From Ahniella affigens (GTDB lineage: Bacteria; Pseudomonadota; Gammaproteobacteria; Xanthomonadales; Ahniellaceae): DNA of 64,000 nt. The notes beneath the pieces are model-generated. The model searched no databases, had not been told where the DNA came from, and was given only the letters and a program-made list of their open reading frames with translations. The position numbers and the translations under genes are program-made. The stretch covers positions 1 to 64,000 of the forward strand of contig NZ_CP027860.1 in NCBI RefSeq assembly GCF_003015185.1, in the 5' to 3' direction. Below, one piece after another: positions 7,395-41,775 of this stretch. Within the stretch, counting starts at the first letter, position 1; each line of letters opens with the position of its first letter.

Positions 7395-7787
7395 ATGGCC
7401 ACAAAGAAACGAGTCTTTATCAGCTTTGACTACGATAACGACGAAGGAGCAAAGACAATGCTCGCGGGGCAAGCGAAGCTGCCAGACAGTCCCTTTGATT
7501 TTAAGGATGCCTCGATCAAAGAGCATCTCACTGGCGACTGGAAGGAAAAGGTGAAACGCCGCATGGATAACATAGATGTGGTGGTTGTCCTCTGCGGAGA
7601 AAAGACCCATACAGCAGCCGGTGTATCCGCTGAGCTGGATATTGCGAAGGAGAAAAATAAGGATTATTTCCTTCTAGCCGCATACTCCGACAAGACCTGT
7701 ACAAAGCCCAAGAGCGCTTTGTCCACCGACAAGGTGTACAAATGGACTTGGGATAACCTCAAGGCGTTAATTGGTGGTGGGCGCTAG
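7395..7787 (+). CDS. thsB: ThsB-like TIR protein (Thoeris sensor/cyclase)
   Basis: 130 residues, a bare TIR of the ThsB/MTH538 type. The protein opens KKRVFISFDYDNDEGAKTML, has the SPFDFKDASIKEHL segment and a NIDVVVVLCGEKTHTAAGVS strand-loop, and ends SAELDIAKEKNKDYFLLAAY with a candidate catalytic Glu in SAELD. ThsB TIRs sense phage and make ADP-ribose-type signals (in type IV Thoeris an N7-linked cADPR derivative has been reported). The AGGGAG ribosome site is close to the ATG. The caspase-like gene starts 9 bases after the stop, and both lie within one cassette bounded by attC sites. Confidence 0.8.
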   Translation: MATKKRVFISFDYDNDEGAKTMLAGQAKLPDSPFDFKDASIKEHLTGDWKEKVKRRMDNIDVVVVLCGEKTHTAAGVSAELDIAKEKNKDYFLLAAYSDKTCTKPKSALSTDKVYKWTWDNLKALIGGGR

Positions 7788-7796
7788 GAGAGGATC

Positions 7797-8782: not shown

Positions 8783-8863
8783 GCCCAACAACTCGCTCAA
8801 CACGGACGTGCAAAAGCGGCGCTTCGCACCGCTTTTGCACGCCGGTTAGCTCCAACGTTAGGC
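8783..8863 (+). other. attC recombination site
   Basis: GCCCAAC and GTTAGGC boxes around a long perfect stem (CGTGCAAAAGCGG / CCGCTTTTGCACG) with a CGCTTCGCA loop. One of the clearest sites in the array. Confidence 0.85.
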
Positions 8864-19926: not shown

Positions 19927-20352
19927 GTGGCTTCATATCAGCTTGAACTCCAGTCTCCACCAAGCGATGAAAGGTCGTTCGAGCTTTGGCTCCAGCACGC
20001 CGCCGGCCGCATCATCTTTGAAGATGTTCGAGATTACGCGAAGGGAAAAATGGATCCGAATCTCTCGTCTGAAGCCAAGGCAGCGGCCGAAAAGGCGATC
20101 AACGATGCCGTATATGGACTGATGATGGTCATTGATGGAGTGGCCGGAAGCCTGCGAAACGGCCAACAAGCCGTTGAAATCTCTGCAGTGGTCAGCCTAC
20201 TGAATCGAAGTTCAGGAGAAGTGGCCGCTCAGCTCGATCTGAGGGAAGGCGATGGCATGTGCATGGGCTATCACGGCTGGATCGAAGGCGACTTTGGCGA
20301 AGATCCCATCGTAGTTGACGACCGCAATGCGGGTTCAGCGTGTGATGCCTAA
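19927..20352 (+). CDS. Cassette protein of unknown function
   Basis: 141 residues from the GTG at 19927, which has a GGGAGAAGG ribosome site; longer frames would start inside the MITE. Contains SFELWLQHAAGRIIFEDVRD, AAEKAINDAVYGLMMVIDGV and MCMGYHGWIEGDFGEDPIVV. Soluble, no family recognised. Placed 19 bases after an attC right box, with its stop in the next left box. Confidence 0.6.
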   Translation: MASYQLELQSPPSDERSFELWLQHAAGRIIFEDVRDYAKGKMDPNLSSEAKAAAEKAINDAVYGLMMVIDGVAGSLRNGQQAVEISAVVSLLNRSSGEVAAQLDLREGDGMCMGYHGWIEGDFGEDPIVVDDRNAGSACDA

Positions 20353-20418
20353 TCCTTCCATCGAGCAGATGTCTTGCCGGCTGCGCCGTCAAGCCACCGC
20401 TCATGTCAAACGTTAGGC
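20347..20418 (+). other. attC recombination site
   Basis: GCCTAAT and GTTAGGC boxes; arms CCTTCCATCGAGCAGATG and CACCGCTCATGTCAAAC. Same subtype as 10069-10140. Confidence 0.7.
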
Positions 20419-22669: not shown

Positions 22670-23151
22670 CAGTCTGCGCTGCGGTTCAACTGTTTACTCG
22701 ACTGGACCTGCGTGGGGAAACGCTTCGTTGAAACTGACCACGAGTCAGACAGGACGCCGAGTCAAACAGGACACGCGCGAACCAAACTAGCGACTGCGTA
22801 TGAGTCGGTGCGTGTCAGCATCAGCCCTCCCGGGTGATTTGGTGCGTGTCCGCAACCAGCTGTGGACATGTTGCCGTCTAACCACTCGCTCGAGCGTACG
22901 CGTGAGTGAGAGGGCAGAAAGCGGACACGCACTAGTAAAATCCGCGACACAAAGTGCTTTGGCGCGTGTCCGCAATTTGATGACAACTCCTTGGGCGTCA
23001 TCTCGTCGACCAGACGGCGCCCCGCGGTGAGGAAAGATCGCCCATGAACGACCTTGCGCACCGTGTGTGCAGACATCTAGAATTATTCGAACCTGCTTGA
23101 AGCATGCGGCAGCTGGCGGGCTAGGACCGAAGGCTTGAGGGTGCCACCGCC
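22670..23151. other. End of main array: orphan attC left half and palindromes
   Basis: A GGACACGCGC / GTGCGTGTC pair is at 22761-22811. The left box GTCTAAC at 22876-22882 with CACTCGCTCGAGCG has no right half. The palindrome P3 is at 22921-22973. No gene seen; the following NLR-like gene is not preceded by a complete attC. Confidence 0.5.
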
Positions 23152-26100
23152 ATGACGATTCCACCGGCTCGCTGCGATCTCCCGAGAAGGGAGCGCATAG
23201 ATGTACTGCTGCTGACTGCGGTGAAGGACGAGCGCGACGTACTGTTGCGCGTTGAATCGGACTGGGAAGAGAGCGCTGATTCAAGCGGTTTTACCGTCCA
23301 TTTCCGTCGCGATCACGGCGGACTCCATTGGGCGCTCGCGCGTGCAGTGGACATGGGCCCGGAATTTGCCTCGAACGTATGTACAAGGCTAGTAACGGAA
23401 CTGCGACCGCGCTGCGTTGCGATGGCGGGAGTTTGCGCAGGGTGGCGCAAGGAGCTAAAGCTCGGCGATGTTGTCGTGGCTGAGCGCTTGTTTCGGTATG
23501 ACGCCGGTAAGTTGCACGCGTTTCAAGAAGGCGGTGCGCGCAAGGAGGAAGTGTTTCAGGATATACGTACCTACAACATTGACGCACGTTGGCGGCAGAA
23601 GGCCGAGGATTTCCCGAACGCTAAGTGGGCGGGAACGATCCGGTCGGCTCGACCCCAGGACTATGATGCGCAGGAATCCTGGCTCCTATTGGCACTGGAT
23701 GCCCATGCTCGTCAACTTCGTGCGCACCCTCGGGATCTTGCGGATCGTAAAGAGCGGTGTCCAGACTGGACCAAAGTTGTCGAACGCCTTGAAAAGCGCA
23801 AGCTCGTTACATTGGACGTAGCGCTTCGCCTCACTGAAGCAGGCAGGGCTCGCGTTCAGGCAGATCGAGACCGATTTCCTGACGGGCCCCCTGCAGCGCG
23901 TGCGGAGCCTGTCTCACGTGTTGCGCCAATGGCGACCGGCAGCCGCGTCGTAGAAGACGCCGAGCTATTCCCGACTTTACACCGTTTCGTGCGAAAGACG
24001 CTCGGGGTGGACATGGAAGGATCCGCGGTTGCAGCTGTGGCCGAAATCGAATCAGTAGAGCACTGCCTTGTAGTGAAGGGCGTGCAAGATCACGCTGACT
24101 CTGACAAAGACGACCGATTTCGTGAGTACGCCATTGAGGCATCTTACCGATTCCTGGTTGCCTTTCTGAGGTACAGCCTCGAGCCCGCGCGGGTTGCCTC
24201 GCCCTTCGTCGTACCGCAGTTGGGCCAGGTGAGCTTTACGGGTAGACAAGAAGAGCTTCGGGCTCTCGAGCAGACGCTTCTCGGCAACGCCACCGGGAAG
24301 ATCTGCACTATCGCGGGCTTGAGCGGATCCGGAGGTATCGGCAAGAGCGCGCTCGCTGTTCGCTTTGCGGACGTCCATCGTGCCCGCTTTCCGGACGGCG
24401 TCGTCGGTCTACGCGTGGACGGCAAGCATGTGGATGCCGTCGCACGAGAGTTCGCGCGCACCGTCGGGGAGCAGATTGACCGGGAGGATGATCGCGACGC
24501 TGCGGCGATCATGCAATCGATCTTCGCTGACCGGGCAATGCTTCTCATCTTCGACAACGCCGAGGATGCCGCTGTGCGACGGCTCGTCCCCGGAGGACGC
24601 TGCGCTGTCATCGTCACAACGCGTGATCGTGGCTTGCCGGTGGCGCTCGACGTTCCGGTGGAAGCCCGCATCGATGTGCCGCCTCTACCGGTCGACGAGG
24701 CCGTTGCATTGTTGCGTCGTTTGGTGGGTCCACGCGTTGACGCTGAGTCCAGTGCAGCGCTCCGCCTCGTAGGTGTTGTCGGGGCCATGCCGCTCGCGCT
24801 CCAGATTGTGTGCGCGACGCTGCAGATCGAGCCCTGGCGCACGCTCGAGAGCCTCGCCGAAATGCTGGAGGTCGAACGGGAGCGGTTGTCGAATCTGAAA
24901 ATTCGCGGCGACCAACACCTCGACGTCCGCGTGTCGTTCACCGCAAGCTTGCGGCTGCTACGCACCGAGGAGATCGATTTCTTTGCCTGCCTGGGTTCTT
25001 GCGCTGCGGACGGTTTCTCGCCGACCACCGCCGGCGCCGTTGCCGGGGGAAACGCGTCACGAGTCTCCGAGCGGTTGGGCTACTTGCATCGGCTATCCCT
25101 TCTCAATCGTCCTCAGAGCACGTCCGAAAGGTTCGTCCTTCATCCTTTGTTACGCGACTTCGCCCGTGAACTGGCAGTAGAGCGTGGGTTGCATGATGAC
25201 GCCGTGGAGCGCCATGCCTGCCACTTTGCCGAGTTGATTGAGGCGCTCGATCCCTGGGACTGGTTGGCCGTTTCGCGTTTTCCTGAGGAAGATATGGACG
25301 ATGCGCTCCTGGCAGCGCAATGGATTGTCAAGCGCAAGGGAGCAAGCCAACGGTTCCTGATTCGGTTGCAGCCGCTCTTGGTGCGCGGCGGCTACTGGCT
25401 CGAGGCCGTACAACTAATCACGGACGCGCTTGAGATCACCCAAGCCAGTGAAAGCAGTGATTCGGTCATCCAACTGCGGATCCAGCAGGCAAAGTTCCTT
25501 CAATTGAGAGGTGACTTCCACGGTGCCGAGGCAGCCCTTAGGCCAGTCATGGACGAGGTCGTGGCGCAGTCGCTCGCCCCGCGCCTCGAAGCGATGGCGC
25601 TTAACAGTTTGGCTGGAGTGTTGCAGCGACAGGGCAAGTTCGACGACGCGGCCGATGCGTTCAGGAGGAGCCACGAGCTACTGAAGGCGCAGGGCGACGA
25701 ACGCGGTCAGGCCATGGTCCTCAACAGTCTGGGCGGGGTGTTGCAGCGGCAGGGCAAGTTCGACGAGGCGGCCGACGCGCTGAAGCAGAGCGCCGAACTG
25801 GAGGATCGGATCGGCAATGAGCGAGGGCGTGGAATGGTCCTCAATAGCCTGGGCGGGGTGTTGCAGCGGCAGGGCAAGTTCGACGAGGCGGCCGACGCGC
25901 TGAAGCAGAGCGCCGAACTGGAGGATCGGATCGGCAATGAGCGAGGGCGTGGAATGGTCCTCAATAGCCTGGGCGGGGTGTTGCAGCGGCAGGGCAAGTT
26001 CGACGACGCGGCCGATGCGTTCCGCCGCAGCATGACCATCTCGGAGCAGCTGAAGGACGAGCGAGGCCTCGCGATGGTCCTCAACAGCCTGGGCGGGGTG

Positions 26101-27897
26101 TTGCAGCGGCAGGGCAAGTTCGACGACGCGGCCGATGCGTTCCGCCGCAGCATGACCATCTCGGAGCAACTGAAGGACGAGCGAGGCCTCGCGATGGTCC
26201 TCAACAGCCTGGGCGGGGCGTTGCAGCGTCAGGGCAAGTTCGACGACGCGGCCGATGCGTTCCGCCGCAGCATGACCATCTCGGAGCAACTGAAGGACGA
26301 GCGAGGCCTCGCGATGGTCCTCAACAGCCTGGGCGGGGTGTTGCAGCGTCAGGGCAAGTTCGACGACGCGGCCGATGCGTTCCGCCGCAGCATGACCATC
26401 TCGGAGCAACTGAAGGACGAGCGAAGCCTCGCGATGGCCCTTAACAGCCTGGGCGGGGTATTGCAGCGTCAGGGCAAGTTCGACGACGCGGCCGATGCGT
26501 TCCGCCGCAGTGTGGCCATTGGTGAGCACCTCGACGACCGGCGTCACTTAGCTATGGTCCTCAACAGCCTGGGCGGGGTATTGCAGCGTCAGGGCAAGTT
26601 CGACGACGCGGCCGATGCGTTCCGCCGGAGCATGACCATCTCGGAGCAACTGAAGGACGAGCGAGGCCTCGTGATGGTCCTCAACAGCCTGGGCGGGGTT
26701 TTGCAGCGGCAGGGCAAGTTCGACGACGCGGCCGATGCGTTCCGCCGCAGCATGACCATCTCGGAGCAACTGAAGGACGAGCTAAGCCTCGCGATGGTCC
26801 TCAACAGCCTGGGCGGGGTATTGCAGCGTCAGGGCAAGTTCGACGACGCGGCCGATGCGTTCCGCCGCAGCATGACCATCTCGGAGCAACTGAAGGACGA
26901 GCGAGGCCTCGCGATGGTCCTCAACAGCCTGGGCGGGGTGTTGCAGCGTCAGGGCAAGTTCGACGACGCGGCCGATGCGTTCCGCCGCAGCATGACCATC
27001 TCGGAGCTACTGAAGGACGAGCGAAGCCTCGCGATGGCCCTTAACAGCCTGGGCGGGGTATTGCAGCGTCAGGGCAAGTTCGGCGACGCGGCCGATGCGT
27101 TTCGCCGCAGTGTGGCCATTGGTGAGCACCTCGACGACCGGCGTCACTTAGCGATGGCCCTTAACAGCCTGGGCGGGGTATTGCAGCGTCAGGGCAAGTT
27201 TCACGAGGCGGCCGATGCGCTCAGGAGGAGCCACGAACTACTGACGACGCAGCGCGACGAGCGCGGTCAGGCGATGGTCCTCAATAGCCTAGGCGGAGTG
27301 TTGCAGAGACTGGGATCGATCGCGGAATCGGACGCCGCCTTCCGCCAGAGCATCGAAATCGGCGAGCGGCTTCGAGATAGCCGACATCTGGCAAAGGCGA
27401 GGACTGCATTCGGCAAAGCACTAGTGACGCGCGGCGTATTGAGTGCCGCAATAGAGCAACTTAAACTTGGCCTCGAGTTAGATCTTGCCGCAAGCAGCGC
27501 ACAGGGCCTCGCCATCGTCGCCCCAATCCTTGTTGACACCTTACGCAGAACCGGGGCTGTAGCCGAGGCAGCGGAGGTCATCCGACGCGCCCTGGCGGTG
27601 GCTCCGGGGCATCCAGCACTGCAGAAGCTCAGCGAGCCCGCAAGCGACAGCGGCTTGGCCCTGCAAAGCAGCGCAGCGGAGTTGACTGGTCGCATCAAGA
27701 GGTTGCTCAGCCCGCTAGGTCGTCCCCGATTCGGATTCATCACCATTGATGGCGGCACCGAGGACATCTACTTTCGCGAGCCCCCAATTCCGCCGGATAT
27801 CTATGCTCAACTCTCGCACGGTACACGCGTCGCAGCAACGGTTACCAACACCTCTCGGGGCAAGCAGGCTATCAGCCTACGGATTCTGCCCGATTGA
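23152..27897 (+). CDS. NLR-like STAND protein: phosphorylase-like, NB-ARC, TPR array, cold-shock-like end
   Basis: 1581 residues. Residues about 10-345 are a purine/uridine phosphorylase-superfamily domain (RIDVLLLTAVKDERDVLL, VAMAGVCAGWRKELKLGDVV, VDMEGSAVAAVAE, KGVQDHAD), with an inserted helical segment at about 170-265. Residues about 365-650 are NB-ARC: FTGRQEELRAL, Walker A GSGGIGKS at 392-399, Walker B MLLIFDNAED, TTRDRGLPVAL sensor. Residues about 820-1420 hold fifteen 40-residue TPR-like repeats. The last 70 (GFITIDGGTEDIYFREPP) resemble a cold-shock/OB domain. Such proteins are bacterial relatives of NLR immune receptors. The inferred model: the TPRs sense a phage product, NB-ARC oligomerises, and the phosphorylase-like domain attacks a nucleoside-type substrate. 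It is probably an autonomous defence gene beside the array. Confidence 0.85.
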   Translation: MTIPPARCDLPRRERIDVLLLTAVKDERDVLLRVESDWEESADSSGFTVHFRRDHGGLHWALARAVDMGPEFASNVCTRLVTELRPRCVAMAGVCAGWRKELKLGDVVVAERLFRYDAGKLHAFQEGGARKEEVFQDIRTYNIDARWRQKAEDFPNAKWAGTIRSARPQDYDAQESWLLLALDAHARQLRAHPRDLADRKERCPDWTKVVERLEKRKLVTLDVALRLTEAGRARVQADRDRFPDGPPAARAEPVSRVAPMATGSRVVEDAELFPTLHRFVRKTLGVDMEGSAVAAVAEIESVEHCLVVKGVQDHADSDKDDRFREYAIEASYRFLVAFLRYSLEPARVASPFVVPQLGQVSFTGRQEELRALEQTLLGNATGKICTIAGLSGSGGIGKSALAVRFADVHRARFPDGVVGLRVDGKHVDAVAREFARTVGEQIDREDDRDAAAIMQSIFADRAMLLIFDNAEDAAVRRLVPGGRCAVIVTTRDRGLPVALDVPVEARIDVPPLPVDEAVALLRRLVGPRVDAESSAALRLVGVVGAMPLALQIVCATLQIEPWRTLESLAEMLEVERERLSNLKIRGDQHLDVRVSFTASLRLLRTEEIDFFACLGSCAADGFSPTTAGAVAGGNASRVSERLGYLHRLSLLNRPQSTSERFVLHPLLRDFARELAVERGLHDDAVERHACHFAELIEALDPWDWLAVSRFPEEDMDDALLAAQWIVKRKGASQRFLIRLQPLLVRGGYWLEAVQLITDALEITQASESSDSVIQLRIQQAKFLQLRGDFHGAEAALRPVMDEVVAQSLAPRLEAMALNSLAGVLQRQGKFDDAADAFRRSHELLKAQGDERGQAMVLNSLGGVLQRQGKFDEAADALKQSAELEDRIGNERGRGMVLNSLGGVLQRQGKFDEAADALKQSAELEDRIGNERGRGMVLNSLGGVLQRQGKFDDAADAFRRSMTISEQLKDERGLAMVLNSLGGVLQRQGKFDDAADAFRRSMTISEQLKDERGLAMVLNSLGGALQRQGKFDDAADAFRRSMTISEQLKDERGLAMVLNSLGGVLQRQGKFDDAADAFRRSMTISEQLKDERSLAMALNSLGGVLQRQGKFDDAADAFRRSVAIGEHLDDRRHLAMVLNSLGGVLQRQGKFDDAADAFRRSMTISEQLKDERGLVMVLNSLGGVLQRQGKFDDAADAFRRSMTISEQLKDELSLAMVLNSLGGVLQRQGKFDDAADAFRRSMTISEQLKDERGLAMVLNSLGGVLQRQGKFDDAADAFRRSMTISELLKDERSLAMALNSLGGVLQRQGKFGDAADAFRRSVAIGEHLDDRRHLAMALNSLGGVLQRQGKFHEAADALRRSHELLTTQRDERGQAMVLNSLGGVLQRLGSIAESDAAFRQSIEIGERLRDSRHLAKARTAFGKALVTRGVLSAAIEQLKLGLELDLAASSAQGLAIVAPILVDTLRRTGAVAEAAEVIRRALAVAPGHPALQKLSEPASDSGLALQSSAAELTGRIKRLLSPLGRPRFGFITIDGGTEDIYFREPPIPPDIYAQLSHGTRVAATVTNTSRGKQAISLRILPD
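25609..27408 (+). repeat. Fifteen tandem 120 bp repeats inside the NLR-like gene
   Basis: Each unit encodes LGGVLQRQGKFDDAADAFRR plus a variable 20-residue half. Units 2 and 3 are identical over the whole 120 bp, and most of units 4-12 differ by only a few bases. Two variants of the second half alternate (SMTISEQLKDERGLAMVLNS and SVAIGEHLDDRRHLAMVLNS). Near-identity at DNA level points to recent expansion and exchange; copy number is also at risk of assembly collapse. Confidence 0.9.
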
Positions 27898-29092: not shown

Positions 29093-32000
29093 TCAATGCA
29101 CCAGACCCCACTCGCTATACGTCAGCTTGCAGCCTTTTTCAAAGTCGATGCCCGCGTGCATCAGGTCTTTGGTGTCGGCTGTTGTATCCGGAAGGTCTGC
29201 GAGTAAGTGACCCAGTTCGTGAGCGGTGATGAGGTTGACGTTGGATTCCTTGTCGTCTCCGATCCAGGCTTCCTTGCGCTCGAACTTTGTCAGTGCCACT
29301 GGGCGCCCGTATTTCATGATGTAGTAGATGTTGTAGTCGGCGCTTGCATCGTAAGCGGACGCCCGCAGTGCATCAACTTCGGCGAAACTGTTGCCGGGGG
29401 TCGGAGGGTCATCCAGAGCGCCGTCACGATCCAGATCGAAGTTCACGGTTCTACTATTCATGCTCAGGGTGAAATGCACATTCGCCTGCTTTCCCCAGAT
29501 GTCGGAATTCAAGTACTGCTGCAGCGAACTTTGGTTGGGGGCATCGGTGGGCACAAGGTTGATGTTGTTCGCGACGGTTTGGCACACGCCATTCGGGCCA
29601 GAGTCGATTGCCGTTGCACCGGCAACATCATCACCGGCCGCATTCGCCGTGTCACGGAATCCATTCGGACCTGCACCCACGCAGGCGCTGTGAGGCAAAC
29701 CCTGATGTTGTGGGATCACCGGGTCGTCGTCGCCAATTCGCGGCGTATCGCAGATGCCGTCGCCGCCGCTGTACACCGTCTCAGGAATGGCAGGCGGACC
29801 GTCCGAGCCCGGGAACAACACATCAGTGTTTGGGACTTGAGCGTCGATACGCCTATTGTTGCCACCGCGCAGGCAAAGTTGGTTGGGTACCCCGCGATTG
29901 ACGGGAATGGGCTGGGTGTCGTCGTTCTCTTCGGTGATCACATGGAGACTGACGTGCTTGTCGATTCTGTCCTTCACCATCACTTTGAAGCTTCCGAAGT
30001 TGCCGCTCAGCCCCTTCATGGATTCGATCTCGGTGTCGCCCACCGCAACGCCAGTGACGGTGAGCTCCTGTGGCGATGCTGCTGCAGTGTCAGGACTGAC
30101 CGTGGCGAAGCCGGTATTGGCGCTTCTGAACTCGACATCGGTGGCGACTTCCGTCGGGTCAATCGCCGCATCGGTCTTGTTCGTACTGCCGAGCGGAACG
30201 AACAGCCAAGGCGGCTTCGGCACATCATCGAAGCCTTCGCACGGACGTTGTTGCGAGTACTTCACTTCGACCAGCGCCACCTCGATCGTGTCCGAGGCGC
30301 CAGCACAACAGGAGCCGCAGGTGAGCGTGGCCCTCACAGTGTAGGATTGCGGACCGGTATAGGACTCGTTCGCCACTGGGCCTTCTGCTGTCTTGCCAGT
30401 TCCCAACGTCCAGGTGGTCATGGGGGTCGGACAGTTGCCGCTGGCCGTGCTCGAGAAGGCCACTGGTATCGCGCCGCCTGCTTCGGGTTGGGGCAGGAAG
30501 AGATCTGCGGTTTCGCCATTGGCGCGAATCTCGATCGCCGCTGGTTCCGTCCCCTCTCCGAATCCGGAAGGACAGCGCACCGGGCATTGGTTGTCACCAT
30601 CATTCGGTAGCGGCGGCGGCGGACCACCGCCACCCCAGCCGGCTTTCGAGATTCCTGAACCTGGGTCGCTGATGATCTGCGTCGCATCTTCGCTCACCGT
30701 GCCATGGCCCATGGGCACAAACGTGGCCAGATCGTGATCCCACTGGAAAATCGGCAGCGTTCGGCCTGGCGCCAGCCCTTCGGTATTCGGGATATGAACC
30801 TCGATCGGCGGATCGAAGCGGGTATTGGTCGGCTGGATGGTCCAGCCGATGCCGGCGAACTGGCCGGCAGTGCCCAAGGGCACCATGGGCAGACGGTCGG
30901 CATGGACGGCATTTACGACCAGCGGGCCCTCGCGGCTACCATCCGGAAAGGTCACGCTGTTGGCGCGCACGCGCATCGAGAAGCCTTCGAATCCTGGCAT
31001 GGTCAGCACGACGTCCTGGTTGCCGCCGACCGTTACCGCACGGCCGATCGACACCGGCGGCAGATAGATCGGATGCGGCAACTGATTCTGCTGGCCTTGC
31101 ACGATCGGCATCTCGAAATGCAGCGCCGGATACTCGTGCGCGACACCGCCGCGGCTGAACTGGACCAGACGGCCATCGACGAACAGATCGATCTTGCCCG
31201 GCGGCACCTGATCGGCGAACCGGAAGCTGCCATCGGCGGCACTCAATACGCTCAACGGTGTTCGGTCGATCGACAGGCGAACGCCAGCAATCGGAGTGCC
31301 ATCGTGGTCCATGACTGTGCCGCCGAGGCCGGTAGGTCCATTCGACCGCTGTAATGACATGAGCTGGAACGTGCTTGTTGCAATGTCCGTGTCGGGCACG
31401 CTTGCCCGAATCTGGATCAAGCCTGGACTCGCGCCCGTTTGCGGTCGAACCGTTGCCACGCCATGGCGATCGGTCTGCACGGCAATTGCTCGACCCTGCT
31501 CGCTGATGCTTCCCGACGTTGCCGAGCGTGCATCGAAACGGGCATCGCCATCGGTCACCTGGAAAGTGACCGTCGTGTCGGCAATCGGATTGCCGTGAGC
31601 ATCCAGTGCCTGCGCCATCAAGGCTTCGACGGGGCGACTGTCGGTGCCGACGAATTGCATGCCGGCGGTTCCATACAAGCCGAGACGCGTTGGTGCTCCG
31701 GCTTCTGCACTAGCCACAAACACCACGTCTTCGGCCATACCGTCACCACGCACGCGCAGTACATCGCTGCCGGGGCGAGCATCCTCGCCCAACGTCCACC
31801 AGACCCGCGCCAGGCCCTCAGCATCCGTCAGCAAGCTGAGATTGCGTGCCGGGTTCAAGCCATCGGGACGATTCGGCTGCGGACCCGCGCGCAGCGAACC
31901 GCTGCCGCGCAGCAGATCGATCTGCAGCGGGTGGTCGGGCAAGGGCTCGCCTTCGGCATTGAGCGCTTGAATCTCCAAAGCGCGCGGCAATTCGGTGCCG

Positions 32001-33937
32001 GCTGGTGCACTTTGACGATCTCCGGAAACCGCAACGATCCGACGCGCTCCTACGGCGGTGCGTACCACCACGAGTTCCTGCTCACGCAGATTGCCGAGCG
32101 CGTCGCGAGCACTCGCCTTCAAGAGATTGCGACCCACAACCAGAGGTACCTCTGCGGCCAGGAAGCCTTGGTTGGCGACGCTTGCCTCAACACCGGAAGC
32201 CAGACTCAGATTGTCGACCCGCACGCTCATCTGAGCGGCGCCGGCGCGTCCTTCGACCGCGTCGTTGACGATGCCGCGCACATCGATTCGCTGCAGCGAT
32301 GTGATTGCAGACGGTGCTGGCGATTCGACTGTCAGCACCGGTGCCGTCTGATCGACATAAACCGTGATCTGGGTGCCACTGGCCCGACCGTGGGCATCCA
32401 TGGCTTGCGCATTCAGCAGATTGGTGCCTTCATGCAGGAAGAAGTTCGGAAACGTGAAGCTGCGCCCATCGGGCGACAGCTGTGCGGCCTGCTGATTGAT
32501 CTGCACCGAGCTCACCGCGGACGACGTGCGACCGCTCACGATTACCGGTCGGGCCACCTGCCCGGTCAGATCGAGCGCACCGCCGGCTACGGGCGTATTC
32601 GGGCTCGAGGCCGGCCCAAGGATCGACCAGTCCAGAGGCGTGTCGATCACCACTTCGGCAACCGGCTGGTAAGTCACCGGAATTTCCAGCGTGCGCGACT
32701 CGCCGCTCGCGAACTGCGCCTCAGCCGTGATCGTGTTTGGGCCAGGTACTAAGGCGAACGACCGACCGTAAATGCGCAGGCCCTGCTCTTCACGCACTGA
32801 TATTGGCGGCAACCCGTTCAAGCGAACCTTTAGCGGATGTCCGGGGCTGGGCGTCGACGCAACCAGAACCTCGACCAAGGCCAGCGGTTCGATCTGCACG
32901 GCGCCCGCAGCCGGGCTGACACGCTCGAGTCGATACAAGCGCTCCTGGTCAATCGTGAAACCGGTCAAGGCCAGCTCGCGGACGCCGTTGCCCGAGCGCG
33001 CGTAAGCTCGCAGTTGGTAAAAGCCCTGCGCAGGTGCTTCGGCAAAGGTATAGCGCAGCAGCACATCGCCGGGGCCGGCTTGCTCAACGGTGAACCGCGC
33101 AGTGATGTCTTCAGATTCCAAGAAGACCTGGATGTCCTGCGCTGCCAATGATCCACGGCTAACCGATGCCCGCAGCACGATCTCCGGGCGACTGCCGAAG
33201 GGCAACACGGTCGCAGCGGGCGACTCGAACACGAGTTGCGGTCGTGGCCCAATCAGAAATGCCCACCCGGCGCGCGTGACATTGCCAGCCAGATCGTAGA
33301 CTTCCAATGTTGCCTCGCGCTGCCCGTCAGGCAATATCGCCGGCGGCTGCAAGGTGAATGAGAAGGCGGTGAGCTGCGCTTGCGCGGTGACATCGACGCC
33401 ATCGAGCAGCAGGCGAGTTCGACTTGGATCGACACCGGCACCAAGGTCACTGAAACGGCCGCTCAGCGTCGGTGCGCTCGGCCCGTCGGGCACATCTCCC
33501 TGCGGCTGCAGGTCAACGACTTGCGGCGGGCTGCGCAGCGTGAACGACCAAGTCAAAGTATTGCTGCCATGACGGACCTCAGCCTGGTGGGTCGCTTCGC
33601 TGAGCACCGTTGGTGGCGACCAGACAATGCCACTGGCGCTCACCGTCGATTCCTCCGTACGTTCGATGCCGTCGACAAACAGGCGCCAACCGGAAGCCGG
33701 CAAAGACCCGCTACTGAGTTGCGCCCCGATCGGTGGCCGCGCGTCTGCCGGCAGCAATGCATCCCGTTCCGGCGACGGCACCGCCAGAAACAGAGCGTCC
33801 AGCGGTTCGAAACTGGAACTGAAAATCAGATCTGCAAAGACAAGCCCGGGCAGCAGGAAGCCAAACAGTACGCAGAACACCCTGCCAAGGCGGAGCATCC
33901 GTGTCGAGTTTCTGTTTCGAACGGTGTTTTGATCCAT
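29093..33937 (-). CDS. Giant exported protein with Ig-like repeats, adhesin-type module and C-terminal zincin motif, paralogue 1
   Basis: 1614 residues from the ATG at 33937, which gives a Sec signal (FCVLFGFLLPGLVFADLIFS) followed by the FSSSFEPLD motif. Residues about 60-900 are repeated beta-sandwich domains (GSGSLRAGPQPNRPDGLNPA marks a bacterial Ig-like unit). At about 960-1030 is a carboxypeptidase-regulatory domain (GLGGTVMDHDGTPIAGVRLS). A conserved block ending DPGSGISKAGWGGGG precedes Cys-rich PKD-like domains. The C-terminus carries LITAHELGHLLADLPDTTAD, an HExxH zinc-protease signature. Probably a cell-surface or secreted metalloprotease/adhesin. It is closely related to 36880-41775. 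Confidence 0.75.
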   Translation of the reverse strand: MDQNTVRNRNSTRMLRLGRVFCVLFGFLLPGLVFADLIFSSSFEPLDALFLAVPSPERDALLPADARPPIGAQLSSGSLPASGWRLFVDGIERTEESTVSASGIVWSPPTVLSEATHQAEVRHGSNTLTWSFTLRSPPQVVDLQPQGDVPDGPSAPTLSGRFSDLGAGVDPSRTRLLLDGVDVTAQAQLTAFSFTLQPPAILPDGQREATLEVYDLAGNVTRAGWAFLIGPRPQLVFESPAATVLPFGSRPEIVLRASVSRGSLAAQDIQVFLESEDITARFTVEQAGPGDVLLRYTFAEAPAQGFYQLRAYARSGNGVRELALTGFTIDQERLYRLERVSPAAGAVQIEPLALVEVLVASTPSPGHPLKVRLNGLPPISVREEQGLRIYGRSFALVPGPNTITAEAQFASGESRTLEIPVTYQPVAEVVIDTPLDWSILGPASSPNTPVAGGALDLTGQVARPVIVSGRTSSAVSSVQINQQAAQLSPDGRSFTFPNFFLHEGTNLLNAQAMDAHGRASGTQITVYVDQTAPVLTVESPAPSAITSLQRIDVRGIVNDAVEGRAGAAQMSVRVDNLSLASGVEASVANQGFLAAEVPLVVGRNLLKASARDALGNLREQELVVVRTAVGARRIVAVSGDRQSAPAGTELPRALEIQALNAEGEPLPDHPLQIDLLRGSGSLRAGPQPNRPDGLNPARNLSLLTDAEGLARVWWTLGEDARPGSDVLRVRGDGMAEDVVFVASAEAGAPTRLGLYGTAGMQFVGTDSRPVEALMAQALDAHGNPIADTTVTFQVTDGDARFDARSATSGSISEQGRAIAVQTDRHGVATVRPQTGASPGLIQIRASVPDTDIATSTFQLMSLQRSNGPTGLGGTVMDHDGTPIAGVRLSIDRTPLSVLSAADGSFRFADQVPPGKIDLFVDGRLVQFSRGGVAHEYPALHFEMPIVQGQQNQLPHPIYLPPVSIGRAVTVGGNQDVVLTMPGFEGFSMRVRANSVTFPDGSREGPLVVNAVHADRLPMVPLGTAGQFAGIGWTIQPTNTRFDPPIEVHIPNTEGLAPGRTLPIFQWDHDLATFVPMGHGTVSEDATQIISDPGSGISKAGWGGGGPPPPLPNDGDNQCPVRCPSGFGEGTEPAAIEIRANGETADLFLPQPEAGGAIPVAFSSTASGNCPTPMTTWTLGTGKTAEGPVANESYTGPQSYTVRATLTCGSCCAGASDTIEVALVEVKYSQQRPCEGFDDVPKPPWLFVPLGSTNKTDAAIDPTEVATDVEFRSANTGFATVSPDTAAASPQELTVTGVAVGDTEIESMKGLSGNFGSFKVMVKDRIDKHVSLHVITEENDDTQPIPVNRGVPNQLCLRGGNNRRIDAQVPNTDVLFPGSDGPPAIPETVYSGGDGICDTPRIGDDDPVIPQHQGLPHSACVGAGPNGFRDTANAAGDDVAGATAIDSGPNGVCQTVANNINLVPTDAPNQSSLQQYLNSDIWGKQANVHFTLSMNSRTVNFDLDRDGALDDPPTPGNSFAEVDALRASAYDASADYNIYYIMKYGRPVALTKFERKEAWIGDDKESNVNLITAHELGHLLADLPDTTADTKDLMHAGIDFEKGCKLTYSEWGLVH

Positions 33938-34425
33938 GAGTGCGACCGCCTGTCTGCGTGGATGCTTCGAACTTGGCCGGCGGCGAATCAAAAATCTCGA
34001 GCCAGCTCGACATCTCACGCGGAATTCGAACAGGCAAAATGCGCAGAAAGGCTCCGTAGGATGGAAGATATTACCTTTTGTCACATGCGGCGAAAGCCAG
34101 CAAATCAGGACAGCCAGCAAAACAGGACATGCACCAAGTCTAGGCACCGTTCGATCAGTCGGCTGGGTTGTGGCGGCCAACCTACGAAAGAACCGGACAC
34201 GGCAAGAACCGGACACGCACAAATTCTCAGGACCGCCAAATCAGTCCGGCGGGTTCTGTCGGGCAACTAGATGCGCACCTGCGCTCCAACGGATAGGCAT
34301 CCAGCGGACAGCCGTGTGCTAGCTTGGCCGACACAACCGTTCGCGGAACGCTGCAGCGTAGTCCAGGCGCTTGCGCCGTTGGACGAAGGATTGCAGCGCC
34401 TGCAGTGACACTTTAGTCTCACTAC
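33938..34425. other. Gene-free stretch with decayed attC
   Basis: Upstream region of the giant gene, a GGACAC repeat at about 34195-34217, and an attC-like sequence at about 34289-34383 (CTCCAACGGATAGGCATCCAG, GCGGACAGCCGTGTGCTAGC) with a badly decayed right end. No gene. Confidence 0.45.
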
Positions 34426-36879: not shown

Positions 36880-39800
36880 CTAGGGATTGGCTTGGTTCCA
36901 TTCCGTCTGCGGAATACGGCACCCGGACAGTCCATCGATCCACTTGTTCATGAGGTCGCGGTTGTCGGTGAGTGTATCGGGCAGATTGCCGAGAAGGTGG
37001 CCCAACTCGTGGGACGTGATGACATAGACGGATGCGGTCTTGCTGTCGCCGATCCACGATTCTCCGCGAGGCCGTTCGGCAAGTGCTACCGGATATTCGT
37101 AGTTCCTCACGAAGTAGACGTTGTAATCGGCGCTTGTATCCTGCGCCGCCGCCCTCAGCGCATCCACTTCCACCCAGGTTGCGGAGACCAGGTAGGGATC
37201 GGCCAGTTTGCCATTTCGGTCCAGATCGAAGTTCACGTTCTGGCTACGCGCCGACACGGTGAAGTGGACATTGGTCTGTTTGCCCCAATAGTCGTTGTTC
37301 AGGTGATTCTGCAGGGTCGCTGCATTCGGAACCTGTGTCGGCACCAGATTCGTCGTGTTAGCGGCCGTCTCGCATTTGCCGTTCGGCCCTGAATCGACAC
37401 CGGTGGACGAACCGCTCGCGACATCGTCACCCAGCAACGCAAGCACCACGGTATCGCGAAAGCCGTTTGCTCCGACGCCGACGCAGCTACCGCTCGGTTG
37501 ACCATTGCCAACCGGCAGCACCTGGACGTCATCGCCACTGCCCGTCGAGTTGCAGATTCCATCCGGTCCCGTGTGCACGGTCGCTGCGGTCGGGGGTGGC
37601 CCGGGAACACCCGGGACCAGAACATCGTCGCCGGTGACCGTGCCGTCCACGGTCAGGTTCGTCCCGCCGCGCAGACACAACTGGTTCGGGATTCCCCTGC
37701 CAACGGGAATGGTTTGTACGTCATCGTTCTCTTCGGTGATGGCATGGATGGTCACGCGCTTCGTAATGCGGTCCTTGACCGCCACCTTGAAGGAGCCGAA
37801 CGTGCTGCTCGTGCCATTCTTCGACTCGATTTCAGTATCGCCCTTGGCAACACCCGTGACCGTAACAACCTGCGGCGACGCGCTGGCCGTCGCCGGGGAC
37901 ACGGTCGCAAAGCCAGTGTTGAGGCTCTTGAAGTCGACGTCTGTGGCCGCAGTCGATGGGTCAATCGTGGCATCCGCCGTGTTCGTGCGGCCAGTTGCTA
38001 CCAGCAGCCAGGGGGGCGAAGGCTTACCGTCGAAGCCGTCACACGCGGTCGATCGAGCGTACTTCACCTCGATGACCGCGACCCGGATCGTGTCGGATGC
38101 GCCGGCGCAACACGCGCCGCAAGTCAGCGTAGCGTTCACGTTGAAGTCGCCGGGTCCGGAGTAGTTGTGCGTGACCGAAGCGCCGGTGAGCGTCGTGCCA
38201 TCGCCCATCGTCCAGGTGATGGTTTGCGTCGGGCAGGTGCCCGTTACCGACGACGTGAATGCGACGCTCGTGGTGCCGCCCGCCGCCGGTTGTGGCAGGA
38301 ACTGGTCGGTCGTATTGCCATTCGCGCTGATCGTGATGGCCGCCGCCGTGGCCCGTCCATCGATGCCGCTCGGGCACCGCACCGGACATTGGTTGTCACC
38401 GTCGTTCGGCGGCGGTGGTGGCGGACCACCACCGCCCCAGCCCGCTTTCGAAATACCCGATCCCGGGTCACTCACGATCTGCGTGCCGTCCTCGTTAACG
38501 GTGCCATGGCCCATCGGCACGAACACGGCCAGGTCATGGTCCCACTGGAAGATCGGGAGCGTGCGACCCGGCGCCAAGCCTTCGGTGTTCGGAATGCGCA
38601 CCTCGATCGGCGGATCGAAGCGCGTATTCGTGGGTTGAATTGTCCAGCCGATTCCGGCGAATTGCCCGGCCGTGCCGAGCGGCACCATCGGCAGACGATC
38701 GGCGTTCACTGCGTTGACGACGATGGGCCCCTGTCGCGTGCCATCCGGGAACGTCACACTGTTGGCGCGCACACGCATCGAGAATCCTTCGAATCCCGGC
38801 ATGGTCACGTCGACATCCTGATTCCCGCCGACCACGGTGGCGCGACCGATCGACACGGCCGGCAGATAGATCGGATGCGGCAACTGATTCTGCTGGCCCT
38901 GCACAATCGGCATCTCGAAATGCAGCGCCGGATACTCATGGGCGATGCCATCGCGCAGGAACTGCACGAGTCGACCGTCCACGAACAGATCGATCTTGCC
39001 GGGAGGTACCTGCTCCGGAAACTGGAATGTGCCGTCTGCCCCGGTCAACAGGCTCAGCGGTGTGCGATCAATCGACAGCCGCACGCCGGCAATGGGCGTG
39101 CCGTCATGATCCATGACAACGCCGCCGAGGGACGTCGGTCCACTCTTGCGCGCCAGGGACGCCAGTTGGAATGTCGCGCTGGCCGTTGGCAGGTCCGCTA
39201 GCGTCGCGTCGATCCGGATGGCACCCGCGGTCATGCCGGTCGACGGGCGAACCGTAGCCACGCCCAGGCGATCGGTGCGGATGTCGATGGCTTGGCCATT
39301 GTCGCGAAGGATCCCCTGAGGTGCCGAACGTGCGTCGAACTTGGCATCGCCTTGGCCAACTCGAAATGTCACGAGGGCCTCGCTGACTGGGTTGCCGTGC
39401 GCGTCGATCGCCTGGGCCATCAGTGCCTCGACCGGCGTGCTGTTGGTTGCCACGAATTGCGTGCCGGCGGTTCCGTACAGGCCGAGCGAGACCGCTGGGC
39501 CCGTCAACGCCGTGGCCGTGAAGACCACATCCTCGGCCATGGCGTCACCCCTGAAACGAACAGCATCGCTTGCGGGACGCGTGTCATGACCCAGCGTCAA
39601 CCAGACGCGCGCCAGGCCGTCTTCGTTCGTGACCAGCGTCAGGTTGCGGGCCGGCGTGACGCCGTCCGGTCGATCCGCTTGTGCGCTGCTGCGGATTGCG
39701 CCGCTGCCGCGAAGGACATCAACTTGAATCGGGTGGCCGGCAATCGGCGCGCCTTCGGCATCGAGTGCCTGCACGTCGAACGATCGCGGAAGTTCGCTTC

Positions 39801-41775
39801 GCGCCGCGCCCGATTGCCCATCGCCTGAGACAGCAACGATCCGGTTTGCACCGACAGCAGTCCGGATCACGTCGATCGATTGTTCGCGAACGTTGCCGAC
39901 GGCATCCTGAGCGCGCACCCTCACTACGTTGCGGCCAATGGCAAGTGGTACGTTCGTCCCGAGGAATCCGAGGTTCGATACGGTGGCGTCAACCCCCGCG
40001 CCGAGCGTCATGTTGTCGATGCGGACTGTCGGTTGGGGTGCGCCGGCGCGACCTTCGACTGCATCGTTCACGATGCCGCGAACATCAATGTCCTGTCCCG
40101 AAGTGATCGCTTCTGGTACCGGTGTTTCGACCGTGATCAATGGTGCGGTCTGGTCGACATAGACCGTGATCTGCGCTGTGCTCGTGCGATCGAAGGCATC
40201 GGTCGCGACTGCGCTCAGCAGGTTCGTGCCTTCATGCAGAAAAAAATTCGGAAACGTGTAGCCAAGACCATCCGGGTCCAACTGTGCAGCTTGCTGATTG
40301 ACCAGGACCGACACGACCGGTGATGTGGCGCGCCCCGAAACGACCACGGCACGGGCAACGTGACCAGTCAGGTCAAGAGCACCACCAGCCGCCGGCGCGC
40401 CGACACTTTGTGCGGGCCCGAGAATCGACCAGTCGGCAGGCGCGTCGATCGTCAATGAAGCTGCGGGTCCGAAAACGATCGGAATGTCGAGTGTCCGCGT
40501 CACGCTGTCAGGGAACGTGGCCATGGCCGCGATCGTGTTCGTTCCGGCGACCAGCGGAACTTCCCGCCCGTAAATGCGAACGTCATGTTCCGTTCGTACC
40601 GACGTGGGCGGCAGGCCAGCAATCCGGACTTCGGTGGGATGCCCCTCGGTCGAACCCGCAAGAACTTCGACAAACGCACGTGGTTCAATGATCGACGCAC
40701 TTGGGTTTGGCGACACGCGCTCGAGACGGTACTCGCGAACCCTGTCGATCGTGAATCCGTGGACGGCTGTCATGCGGATTCCGTTCGCGGTCTCAAGCGT
40801 CGCATGGAGACGATAGTGACCGGGCGCCGGTGCCGATGCAAACACATGACGCACCAGCAACGCGCTCGGCCCATCAGGCTCGATCGACGAGGAACCGGTG
40901 ATATCGACGGCGTCCAGGTACAGTCGGATGGCCTCTGGCGCAATGGCGCCGCGTGAAATCGACGCGCGCAGACGAATCTCCGGCACGCTGTCTGGAGCAA
41001 GGATCAAAGACGCAGGCGACTCAAAGACAAAAATCGGTCTGGGTCCGAACAGGAACGCCCAGCCCTCTCGATGTTCGTTGCCGGCGAGATCGTAGACTTC
41101 CAGGGTTACCTGATGTTGGCCATCCGAAGGCGCTGATGCAGGTTGGTAGGTGAATGCACTGGGAGTTACCTCGGCCAGCGAGGTCACATCGGCGCCATCG
41201 AGCAGGATGCGTGTCCGTGCGACGTCGATGCCGGAACCGATGTCGCCGAACGCCCCACGGATGACCGGAGGTGTCGTGCCATCCTGGACATCACCCTGAG
41301 GGTGCAGGTCGGCGACGTGCGGTGGGGTTCGCAAAACGAACGACCAAGCCAACATTTCGGAGCCATATCGGACTTCTGCGGTATGTGCGGCCTCCGTGAG
41401 TGCCGATGCAGGCGTCCACTCGATCCCGGTCTCGCTGGCGGTTGCAGCGCTGGTTCGGTCGACGCCATCGACGATCAGTCGCCACCCGGCGGCGGGTAGT
41501 GTGCCCTCACTCAAGCGTGCGCCGACGGTCGGCTGTGACAAGGCGGGCAGCACGGTATCGCGTGCGGGCATCGGATCGGCAAAGTGGAGCGTGCCCAAGG
41601 GCTCGAACCCCGACTTGAAAATCAATTCCGCGGAGACACCGAGTGAGGTGAGCGCCAGGATCAGCAACGCACCCAATCTTGTCCCGAACCGGGCAAGGGA
41701 CTGTCCCAAGGCTCGTGTGGCGGAAGCTGCGTCTTTGAGTGGACGAATTCCAGATGCTCGGTTCGTTGTTTTCAT
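36880..41775 (-). CDS. Giant exported protein with Ig-like repeats and C-terminal zincin motif, paralogue 2
   Basis: 1631 residues. Signal (LGALLILALTSLGVSA) then ELIFKSGFEPLG, the same exported-protein motif as paralogue 1. The order of beta-sandwich domains, the carboxypeptidase-regulatory unit (SLGGVVMDHDGTPIAGVRLS), the DPGSGISKAGWGGGG block and Cys-rich PKD-like part (TCGACCAGASDTIRVAV) are conserved along the full length. The C-terminus has VITSHELGHLLGNLPDTLTD, an HExxH motif, and a terminal CRIPQTEWNQ. The block DPGSGxxxAGW is also seen at the start of some RHS/polymorphic-toxin proteins, so a toxin-delivery origin is possible. Confidence 0.75.
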   Translation of the reverse strand: MKTTNRASGIRPLKDAASATRALGQSLARFGTRLGALLILALTSLGVSAELIFKSGFEPLGTLHFADPMPARDTVLPALSQPTVGARLSEGTLPAAGWRLIVDGVDRTSAATASETGIEWTPASALTEAAHTAEVRYGSEMLAWSFVLRTPPHVADLHPQGDVQDGTTPPVIRGAFGDIGSGIDVARTRILLDGADVTSLAEVTPSAFTYQPASAPSDGQHQVTLEVYDLAGNEHREGWAFLFGPRPIFVFESPASLILAPDSVPEIRLRASISRGAIAPEAIRLYLDAVDITGSSSIEPDGPSALLVRHVFASAPAPGHYRLHATLETANGIRMTAVHGFTIDRVREYRLERVSPNPSASIIEPRAFVEVLAGSTEGHPTEVRIAGLPPTSVRTEHDVRIYGREVPLVAGTNTIAAMATFPDSVTRTLDIPIVFGPAASLTIDAPADWSILGPAQSVGAPAAGGALDLTGHVARAVVVSGRATSPVVSVLVNQQAAQLDPDGLGYTFPNFFLHEGTNLLSAVATDAFDRTSTAQITVYVDQTAPLITVETPVPEAITSGQDIDVRGIVNDAVEGRAGAPQPTVRIDNMTLGAGVDATVSNLGFLGTNVPLAIGRNVVRVRAQDAVGNVREQSIDVIRTAVGANRIVAVSGDGQSGAARSELPRSFDVQALDAEGAPIAGHPIQVDVLRGSGAIRSSAQADRPDGVTPARNLTLVTNEDGLARVWLTLGHDTRPASDAVRFRGDAMAEDVVFTATALTGPAVSLGLYGTAGTQFVATNSTPVEALMAQAIDAHGNPVSEALVTFRVGQGDAKFDARSAPQGILRDNGQAIDIRTDRLGVATVRPSTGMTAGAIRIDATLADLPTASATFQLASLARKSGPTSLGGVVMDHDGTPIAGVRLSIDRTPLSLLTGADGTFQFPEQVPPGKIDLFVDGRLVQFLRDGIAHEYPALHFEMPIVQGQQNQLPHPIYLPAVSIGRATVVGGNQDVDVTMPGFEGFSMRVRANSVTFPDGTRQGPIVVNAVNADRLPMVPLGTAGQFAGIGWTIQPTNTRFDPPIEVRIPNTEGLAPGRTLPIFQWDHDLAVFVPMGHGTVNEDGTQIVSDPGSGISKAGWGGGGPPPPPPNDGDNQCPVRCPSGIDGRATAAAITISANGNTTDQFLPQPAAGGTTSVAFTSSVTGTCPTQTITWTMGDGTTLTGASVTHNYSGPGDFNVNATLTCGACCAGASDTIRVAVIEVKYARSTACDGFDGKPSPPWLLVATGRTNTADATIDPSTAATDVDFKSLNTGFATVSPATASASPQVVTVTGVAKGDTEIESKNGTSSTFGSFKVAVKDRITKRVTIHAITEENDDVQTIPVGRGIPNQLCLRGGTNLTVDGTVTGDDVLVPGVPGPPPTAATVHTGPDGICNSTGSGDDVQVLPVGNGQPSGSCVGVGANGFRDTVVLALLGDDVASGSSTGVDSGPNGKCETAANTTNLVPTQVPNAATLQNHLNNDYWGKQTNVHFTVSARSQNVNFDLDRNGKLADPYLVSATWVEVDALRAAAQDTSADYNVYFVRNYEYPVALAERPRGESWIGDSKTASVYVITSHELGHLLGNLPDTLTDNRDLMNKWIDGLSGCRIPQTEWNQANP

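Follow-up and report, generated by a model that had tools for sequence, protein, structure and literature searches.

Introduction

STAND proteins are switches whose assembly is driven by the nucleotide-binding domain, while sensing usually falls to the repeats. PNP-family (purine nucleoside phosphorylase) effectors of the Cap17 group are listed as degrading (d)ATP and as present in systems resembling NLRs (nucleotide-binding receptors with repeats) (PMC10952713, citing Rousset et al. 2023). The PNP_UDP domain is described as an ATP nucleosidase of immunity that often forms the head of fungal NLRs (PMC10197012). A PNPase is also named among the effectors of GAP1-N1 systems, where it is suggested to act on a nucleotide or nucleoside and release its base (Kaur et al. 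2020, PMC7159879). For the other end of such proteins, the SAMD9 family, found in animals and bacteria and in actinomycetes in particular, is described with a core of AlbA_2, a SIR2-like domain, a STAND-like NTPase, tetratricopeptide repeats (TPRs) and a C-terminal oligonucleotide/oligosaccharide-binding (OB) fold most like cold-shock proteins (Csps); some members are without the AlbA_2 and SIR2-like domains (Mekhedov et al. 2017, PMC5445408). Here we describe a gene of Ahniella affigens, located at positions 23152–27897 of the first 64,000 nucleotides of contig NZ_CP027860.1 (the window), that joins a nucleosidase head, an NB-ARC switch, a TPR array and a C-terminal cold-shock domain in one polypeptide. 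The effector is N-terminal and the repeats are C-terminal, as in STAND or bacterial NLR-type receptors, and each piece is known from defence proteins; the gene is an unusual variant of a known receptor type.

Architecture of the gene

The open reading frame (ORF) codes for 1581 amino acids, starts with ATG and contains no internal stop. A crude gene caller favours a GTG at residue 24 as alternative start; because a conserved first strand (residues 17–22) precedes this GTG, the ATG at 23152 is the likely start. The order of PNP-like, NB-ARC and TPR parts proposed in the initial annotation is borne out by Pfam matches and by analysis of the repeats. The Pfam search was run on pieces of the protein (PNP, NB-ARC and the isolated 84-residue tail), while the TPR families were taken from the whole protein. 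Compared with its own genome, the protein matches itself and eight other places, all within query residues 759–1287, in the TPR part. The features are as follows, all on the plus strand.

23152–27897, plus: whole gene, 1581 amino acids, PNP head, NB-ARC, TPR array and cold-shock domain (ORF and Pfam)
23200–23610, plus: N-terminal half of a nucleosidase fold like that of methylthioadenosine/S-adenosylhomocysteine (MTA/SAH) nucleosidase (MTAN), residues 17–153, with Glu27 aligned to MTAN Glu12 (Pfam PNP_UDP_1, Foldseek, alignment with E. coli K-12 Mtn)
23611–23916, plus: insertion in the PNP fold, residues ~154–255, not in MTAN, with a CPDW motif (head model, alignments)
23917–24186, plus: C-terminal half of the nucleosidase fold, residues 256–345, with Glu289 and Asp313 aligned to MTAN Glu174 and Asp197 (alignment)
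24247–24870, plus: NB-ARC NTPase domain, residues 366–573 (Pfam, E 8e-10, over the cut-off; AfsR in the PDB, E 2e-27; motif positions)
25603–27402, plus: fifteen 40-residue TPR units, residues 818–1417, in the order H A A M M M M V M M M M V H and one degenerate unit (repeat finder, unit alignment)
25963–27162, plus: five-unit block (M M M M V) present twice in direct succession, the copies agreeing at 583 of 600 bases (DNA comparison)
27403–27651, plus: two more TPR-like helical hairpins and a linker, residues 1418–1500 (by eye; TPR_14 stretch at 1460–1491)
27676–27894, plus: C-terminal cold-shock domain, residues 1509–1581, with RNP1-like RFGFI and RNP2-like DIYFRE (Pfam, PDB sequences, model, Foldseek)

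The nucleosidase head

The head matches PNP_UDP_1 over residues 18–153 and a second stretch (E 2.5e-16). An AlphaFold2 model, built on six aligned heads, has a mean predicted local distance difference test (pLDDT) score of 70.2, and when it is compared to the PDB with Foldseek, the 50 rows listed contain only MTA/SAH nucleosidases and futalosine hydrolase (E 1e-10 to 1e-8). Glu27, Glu289 and Asp313 fall on Glu12, Glu174 and Asp197 of MTAN, which we take to be its catalytic positions, and Glu12Gln and Asp197Asn mutants are named in the titles of MTAN entries matched. The initial annotation had asked whether active-site residues are kept in homologues; these three are invariant in seven of seven rows of an alignment of the window head, five relatives and E. 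coli K-12 Mtn.

The two halves of the fold are separated by an insertion of about 100 residues, without which MTAN is built. Residues 171–240 of the insertion have block pLDDT values of 82–93, with helices and a hairpin modelled (171–241), and in the model it reads as winged-helix-like. All six relatives of the head contain the insertion as far as their sequence extends, one of them (Photobacterium sp. OFAV2-7, L064) only from residue ~174 onwards. The PN-superfamily effector and PDC-M60C models of PADLOC score 86.5 and 110.6 bits on the window head, 84–95 and 142–163 bits on GAP1-type heads, and 54.6 and 42.5 bits on E. coli Mtn; by these scores the head appears immune-type rather than housekeeping, as a difference of degree. 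The SLOG domain PF18178, listed with Cap17, was looked for on the head with Pfam up to E 1 and gave no match. The head probably destroys purine nucleotides.

Relatives of the head in conflict systems

The genome_contigs collection was scanned once with the window head and its plasmid homologue, giving 75 candidate stretches and six relatives: two Psychrobacter genomes (L059 and L063) with a nearly identical operon, Celerinatantimonas diazotrophica (L060), Photobacterium galatheae (L061), Paraburkholderia polaris (L062) and the aforementioned Photobacterium sp. OFAV2-7. The window head is 36–40% identical to the heads of GAP1-type systems over the whole length, insertion included. Family scans of five genes of the L059 operon give PNP-EAD1, GASH, DO-GTPase2, DO-GTPase1 and GAP1-N1 with a C-terminal EAD1; the EAD1 of the PNP gene reaches 19 bits, below the cut-off of 24.2. 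In C. diazotrophica, which has a similar ORF order, the family scan covered the GASH gene. The order is similar in P. galatheae, from reading the ORFs without a family scan, and less clear in P. polaris. A P. sabiae plasmid locus with the same head has annotated EAD1 and GASH. On sequence, the window head is of the PNP effector type of GAP1-N1/GASH/double-GTPase conflict systems, with whose effectors it shares ancestry. EAD1 has no Pfam match on the window head or NB-ARC pieces, and neither EAD1, GASH, DO-GTPase nor GAP1-N1 is found among the neighbouring ORFs scanned (10 in one scan and 5 in another, part of the ORFs of the neighbourhood).

In Photobacterium sp. OFAV2-7, the same head, truncated by the contig end, is fused to an NB-ARC domain, and a 428-residue TPR ORF overlaps the end of this gene in another frame. 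Over shared columns, this head is 64% identical to the GAP1-type head of P. galatheae versus 39% to the window head, and the window and Photobacterium NB-ARC domains share 23% identity; because of this closer GAP1-type head and the low NB-ARC identity, we infer that the head moved onto an NLR chassis twice, separately. A seven-row tree of head fragments, in which the window sits on a very long branch (4.03), cannot decide the moves and supports no claim.

The NB-ARC switch

The NB-ARC domain contains GSGGIGKS at residue 392, LLIFDN at 464 and MPLALQ at 546, while LHPLLRDF is located at 663, beyond the domain; we take GSGGIGKS for the Walker A motif, LLIFDN for a Walker B-like and LHPLLRDF for an MHD-like motif. 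A sequence search of the PDB with this domain, up to E 10, yields two entries, both of AfsR (8k60 and 8jke, E 2e-27), and by sequence the domain is to be classed as AfsR-type. The NCBIfam AfsR model spans both the NB-ARC domain and the TPRs of the window protein; unlike the latter, AfsR has neither a PNP nor a cold-shock domain. Its head is a SARP DNA-binding domain.

The TPR array

In the whole protein, TPR_12 matches with E 4e-108. Tandem Repeats Finder reports 13.4 copies of 120 bp with 89% matches; by protein, there are 15 units of 40 residues (818–1417). Eight units are 94–99% identical in DNA, in line with the near-identical array that had been noticed before. Within the units, residues 1–23 (the framework) are nearly invariant, while residues 24–37 come in four discrete versions (H, A, M and V). 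In the Pfam TPR register this variable segment runs from the end of helix B through the loop into the first turn of the helix A that follows. With the degenerate unit left out, the proportions of synonymous (pS) and nonsynonymous (pN) differences between versions are low in the framework (0.32 and 0.07) and high in the variable segment; because of this difference, the array looks like a mosaic, in which the framework would have been homogenised and older, divergent segments kept as blocks. Within a type, framework differences are mostly synonymous (pS 0.114, pN 0.007). The five-unit block is duplicated. Fungal NLR repeats are described as undergoing concerted evolution, but with variable sites on the concave face (Dyrka et al. 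2014, PMC4986451). As a guess, presenting one and the same face a dozen times would fit a ligand that is itself repetitive, or binding by avidity. The earlier suggestion that the TPRs set the assembly found no support in this analysis.

The cold-shock tail

The isolated 84-residue tail matches the CSD family PF00313 with E 5e-6 and 26.7 bits, just under the curated cut-off of 27; searched in its own genome (26.4 bits for the tail), the family also identifies two ordinary Csps and one very weak place. In a sequence search of the PDB, the isolated tail has cold-shock proteins as its five top matches (E 3.6e-5 to 4e-4). The AlphaFold2 model of residues 1503–1581 (mean pLDDT 90.2) is an OB barrel of five strands (1509–1578), although its alignment is filled with viral Csps, which favours a cold-shock fold. 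In Foldseek, this model has four matches at E ≤ 0.001, of which the first three are CspE and CspA (TM-scores 0.69–0.73, E 4e-4 to 5e-4), with OB folds of aminoacyl-tRNA synthetases ranking close behind. A chance match is ruled out by the agreement of the Pfam piece search, the PDB sequence search and the model; these three are not fully independent, since they concern the same tail and the alignment consists mostly of Csps. The OB or cold-shock-like domain that the initial annotation placed at residues 1510–1581 is therefore supported, with bounds that fit the modelled strands, and the region does fold as an OB domain in the model.

When the tail is aligned with CspA, the RNP1 pair F18 and F20 is kept, F31 is replaced by tyrosine and the RNP2 ligand set is kept in part only; we take F18, F20 and F31, like W11, H33 and F34, to be ligand contacts of CspA. 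Binding of single strands by the tail is plausible. Elsewhere, cold-shock domains are listed among the RNA-binding modules of vWA-MoxR systems (PMC7159879) and described at the N-terminus of type I CoCoNuT GTPases (PMC11090510). The order NTPase, TPR, OB is already known, as described for the SAMD9 family (PMC5445408), while a PNP ahead of it was not found elsewhere. The view that such a C-terminal domain is unusual has to be qualified by the SAMD9 precedent: the tail is unusual but precedented.

Occurrence of the full architecture

The same architecture was sought elsewhere, as the initial annotation had proposed. The genome samples overlap and contain 61 to 398 genomes each, the initial filter scored only some candidates, and the full genome_contigs scan used the head as the only query. 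In the genome, plasmid, phage and viral samples searched, no second PNP/NB-ARC/TPR/cold-shock protein was found, with a missed homologue possible. Head plus NB-ARC matches 6 of 61 relatives at E ≤ 0.001, the window included and the others partial, and 7 of 369 genomes of the class at 1e-8, where the six besides the window match within query residues 320–696, on the NB-ARC side. The NB-ARC domain alone is matched in one of 101 relatives and a head profile in one of 398 genomes of the phylum (at 1e-15), in both cases the window itself.

The tail with the last TPR is matched in 65 of 369 genomes at 0.01, the window included; the longest other open frame listed has 444 residues and is a transposase running on into a Csp. 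The tail alone is matched in at least 228 of 398 genomes at 0.05, again with the window, and the longest other frame among the matches listed has 347 residues. In the plasmid collection, head plus NB-ARC matches 186 records, none of them covering 80% of the query, and the tail 47 records at E up to 1, of which the two that were read are plain Csps. The phage collection has no match to head plus NB-ARC, and 19 pattern matches in viral contigs include no relative of the head. An NYN-type protein with a terminal CSD (L047) was read by eye and rejected as a relative. As a separate observation, a 415-residue open frame at L046 418–1665 appears by eye to run from a transposase into a cold-shock protein and is probably a chance fusion. 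Literature searches, some of them aimed at a protein with PNP, NB-ARC, TPR and cold-shock domains, were limited to open-licence PMC papers; no such protein is named in what they covered, which is no proof of absence. The full architecture is likely to be rare.

Genomic setting

The gene is located in an array of integron attC-like sites. A strict regular-expression scan for attC gives nothing and a looser one two sites; a covariance model was used instead, built from ten attC-like sites of the window, so that its hits on those ten are circular and the other seven are the tests. With a threshold of E below 0.01 it yields 17 sites in the window, from 671 to 34375, every one of them on the plus strand. 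The sites nearest to the gene are:

20347–20418, plus: nearest full attC-like site upstream (covariance model, 33.8 bits, E 2e-7)
22876–22894, plus: 5' end of an attC-like site just upstream, with a palindromic repeat in place of the 3' half (sequence reading; no full site by the covariance model)
34287–34375, plus: nearest full attC-like site downstream (covariance model, 40.8 bits, E 2e-9)

The gene lies within the span of the array, yet not in a clean single-gene cassette: between the two full sites there is half a site, at 22876. A minus-strand ORF of 5.1 kb is located between the gene and the next attC site. This ORF (29093–34222, 1709 amino acids) and another minus-strand ORF at 36880–41775 (1631 amino acids) have similar Ig-like, PKD and glucodextranase-B matches; by these matches both are assigned as surface-type proteins, the former inside the attC span. 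A 67-nucleotide palindromic repeat (GCGGACACGCAC...GCGTGTCCGC in the best copies) occurs at 11760, 17678, 22910, 28031, 28586 and 28792, within the array and flanking the NLR gene on either side, with copies 63–81% identical to the reference. The surrounding array also contains transposase remnants, other dispersed repeats and incomplete attC sites, and crude gene calling performed weakly over the cassettes.

The gene had been placed at the edge of a defence array. This is confirmed in part: its neighbours are located in the integron attC array and include genes with defence-type matches, and the gene lies between the full sites listed above. The array holds a ThsB-TIR and caspase pair, an mCpol and CARF-TM pair, a TIR_2 protein, and Gp49-like and ParE toxins. 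At 3849–5047, between attC sites 3728–3817 and 5042–5113, the mCpol gene (PF18182, 72.7 bits), the only one found in the genome, overlaps that of a CARF-TM protein (197 bits), presumably a Panoptes-type anti-phage pair in an integron cassette. A ThsB-like TIR protein followed by a caspase-family protein at 7395–8771, between sites 7256–7345 and 8783–8863, we take to be like type IV Thoeris, also in a cassette. The TIR_2 protein (5431–6432) is directly behind an attC site.

In the genome as a whole, at least 70 attC sites are present, from scoring 150 of 4525 first-look candidates, and 53 of them are located at 1.586–1.632 Mb. There are two arrays, both in plus orientation, that of the window (671–34375) and a second one at G000:C1 1585687–1632230. 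The second array adjoins an integron integrase (488.9 bits, the only match over the family cut-off) with one stop codon, TAG, inside; near the window array, no integrase over the cut-off was found. Behind an attC site of the second array, a TIR-like ORF was seen by eye (L102 7997–8872). One further site is located just before the contig end (5971255–5971365 of 5971549), and if the contig is circular, the window array probably runs across it.

Proposed mechanism and alternatives

We propose that the protein is a single-protein STAND/NLR-type immune receptor acting by abortive infection, with a TPR/cold-shock sensor and a nucleosidase effector. At rest, the AfsR-type NB-ARC domain would hold the protein closed. 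An infection cue would meet the C-terminal sensor, made up of the mosaic TPR solenoid and the cold-shock domain, the latter most likely adding a contact to single-stranded RNA or DNA. The NTPase would then oligomerise, bringing the N-terminal nucleosidase heads together in an active form, and the heads would cleave the N-glycosidic bond of an adenine nucleotide or nucleoside, so that phage and cell are starved. The domain identities, the intact motifs, the common ancestry of the head with conflict-system effectors and the genomic setting are observed; the immune role, the oligomerisation and the activation are inferred from them and from related proteins. We give this complete reading slightly better than an even chance, and the mechanism class alone, an immune receptor with a nucleosidase effector, a chance at least as good. 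ATP or dATP as substrate is a tentative first guess by analogy with related enzymes, which falls short of an even chance, and a nucleic acid as part of the cue, guessed in the same way, is somewhat more doubtful.

Several observations weigh against this proposal. The head model is low in confidence at residues 114–139 and 253–286, and the E. coli Mtn control also matches the two PADLOC models, less well (54.6 and 42.5 bits). The only solved NTPases found by sequence (two of two) belong to a transcriptional regulator, and the best NCBIfam NB-ARC/TPR match is a RiPP-biosynthesis protein (ribosomally synthesised and post-translationally modified peptide; 328 bits versus a cut-off of 1125). In the variable segment of the repeats, pN (0.51) is below pS (0.65), so that positive selection is unsupported (degenerate unit left out); the variation affects the loop and the end of helix B rather than the concave face, and the framework is constant, its helix-A part included. 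About half of the cold-shock ligand contacts are lost, with Arg, Arg and Glu in place of W11, H33 and F34 of CspA. The contrast in GC content between codon positions is weaker in the tail (0.59/0.53/0.64) than in the body, and the full architecture is a singleton in the samples searched.

The loss of these three contacts would suit a receptor of the same kind whose cold-shock domain senses no nucleic acid and instead caps the TPR solenoid structurally or binds protein through its OB fold, with a TPR-bound phage protein as the sole cue. Such sensing is proposed for the C-terminal TPR/Sel1 repeats of Avs5, a STAND receptor (PMC12931631). However, the RNP1 motif RFGFI is kept, F31 has become another aromatic residue, Tyr, and the fold is intact in the model, while a cap would presumably need no RNP1 aromatic pair. 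We regard this version as unlikely, though well within consideration.

A cytoplasmic regulator with an AfsR/MalT-like switch is improbable. In it, the head would make or remove a nucleoside signal, and the winged-helix-like insertion and the cold-shock domain would act on transcription or mRNA. AfsR being the only solved NTPase found fits such a regulator, as do the plasmid records matched by head plus NB-ARC: 157 of 186 come from Streptomyces, and among the 30 rows listed 17 have an annotation as BTAD or AfsR/SARP regulators, matching over the NB-ARC region. But those relatives of the head that were read are part of conflict-type operons or fused to NB-ARC, conflict-system heads share the insertion, no BTAD domain is found by Pfam on the pieces scanned, and the gene lies in an attC array with defence genes.

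Within the proposed immune receptor, a slightly longer shot still is that the cold-shock domain serves as an integrated decoy that copies a phage-targeted host protein, so that a phage factor (or phage single-stranded RNA) seizing host Csps would spring the nucleosidase trap. Integrated domains are found in plant NLRs, and if the decoy reading is true, the tail would be their prokaryotic counterpart.

Least probable of all is a chance chimera or decaying gene of no present function in a scrambled integron array, for which the singleton architecture, the transposase remnants, dispersed repeats and incomplete attC sites, and the weaker codon-position contrast of the tail may be cited, but against which stand the single open frame of 1581 codons, the intact catalytic and NTPase motifs and the mostly synonymous framework differences within repeat types.

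Comparison with known systems

The window head resembles the heads of GAP1-N1 systems (PMC7159879, for the systems as there described) over its whole length, in the CPDW insertion and in the catalytic residues; in those systems the head bears an EAD1-like domain and its operon also encodes GAP1-N1, GASH and two double-GTPases (as in L059), whereas in the window it shares one polypeptide with NB-ARC, TPRs and a cold-shock domain. One effector module would be common to two different immune chassis, of which one is a multi-gene system centred on GTPases and the other a single-protein NLR. With the Cap17/Detocs-type ATP nucleosidases (PMC10952713, PMC10197012) the protein shares the PNP fold, which is described there in NLR-like systems as well, and the PADLOC PN-superfamily effector model matches the window head; the Cap17-type effectors listed carry a TIR/PNP-associating SLOG domain, for which the window head is without a match. 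Fungal NLRs of the PNP_UDP-NACHT-TPR or ANK type (PMC4986451) have the same order of effector, switch and repeats, and concerted, highly conserved repeats; in the available text no cold-shock tail is named for them, and their variable sites are on the concave face, unlike those of the window.

EAD10-type TPR-GreA/B-C-PIN proteins (Kaur et al. 2021, PMC8195603) resemble the window protein in their swappable N-terminal effectors, PNPase included, their TPRs and a nucleic-acid-related C-terminus; no NTPase is named for them in the available passages, and they end in GreA/B-C and PIN rather than in a cold-shock domain. The SAMD9 family (PMC5445408) has, as far as described there, a STAND-like NTPase, TPRs and a C-terminal cold-shock-like OB fold, as in the window, a likeness by domain order; its N-terminus consists of AlbA_2 and SIR2-like domains, or of a kinase in many bacterial members, where the window protein has PNP, with no Pfam match to AlbA_2 or SIR2-like on its head. 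The window protein is a compact bacterial test case of whether nucleic acid is read by a cold-shock OB fold that ends a TPR sensor, an arrangement also seen in the antiviral SAMD9 family. If the tail sets off the switch, the role of OB tails on STAND receptors would be directly testable in E. coli.

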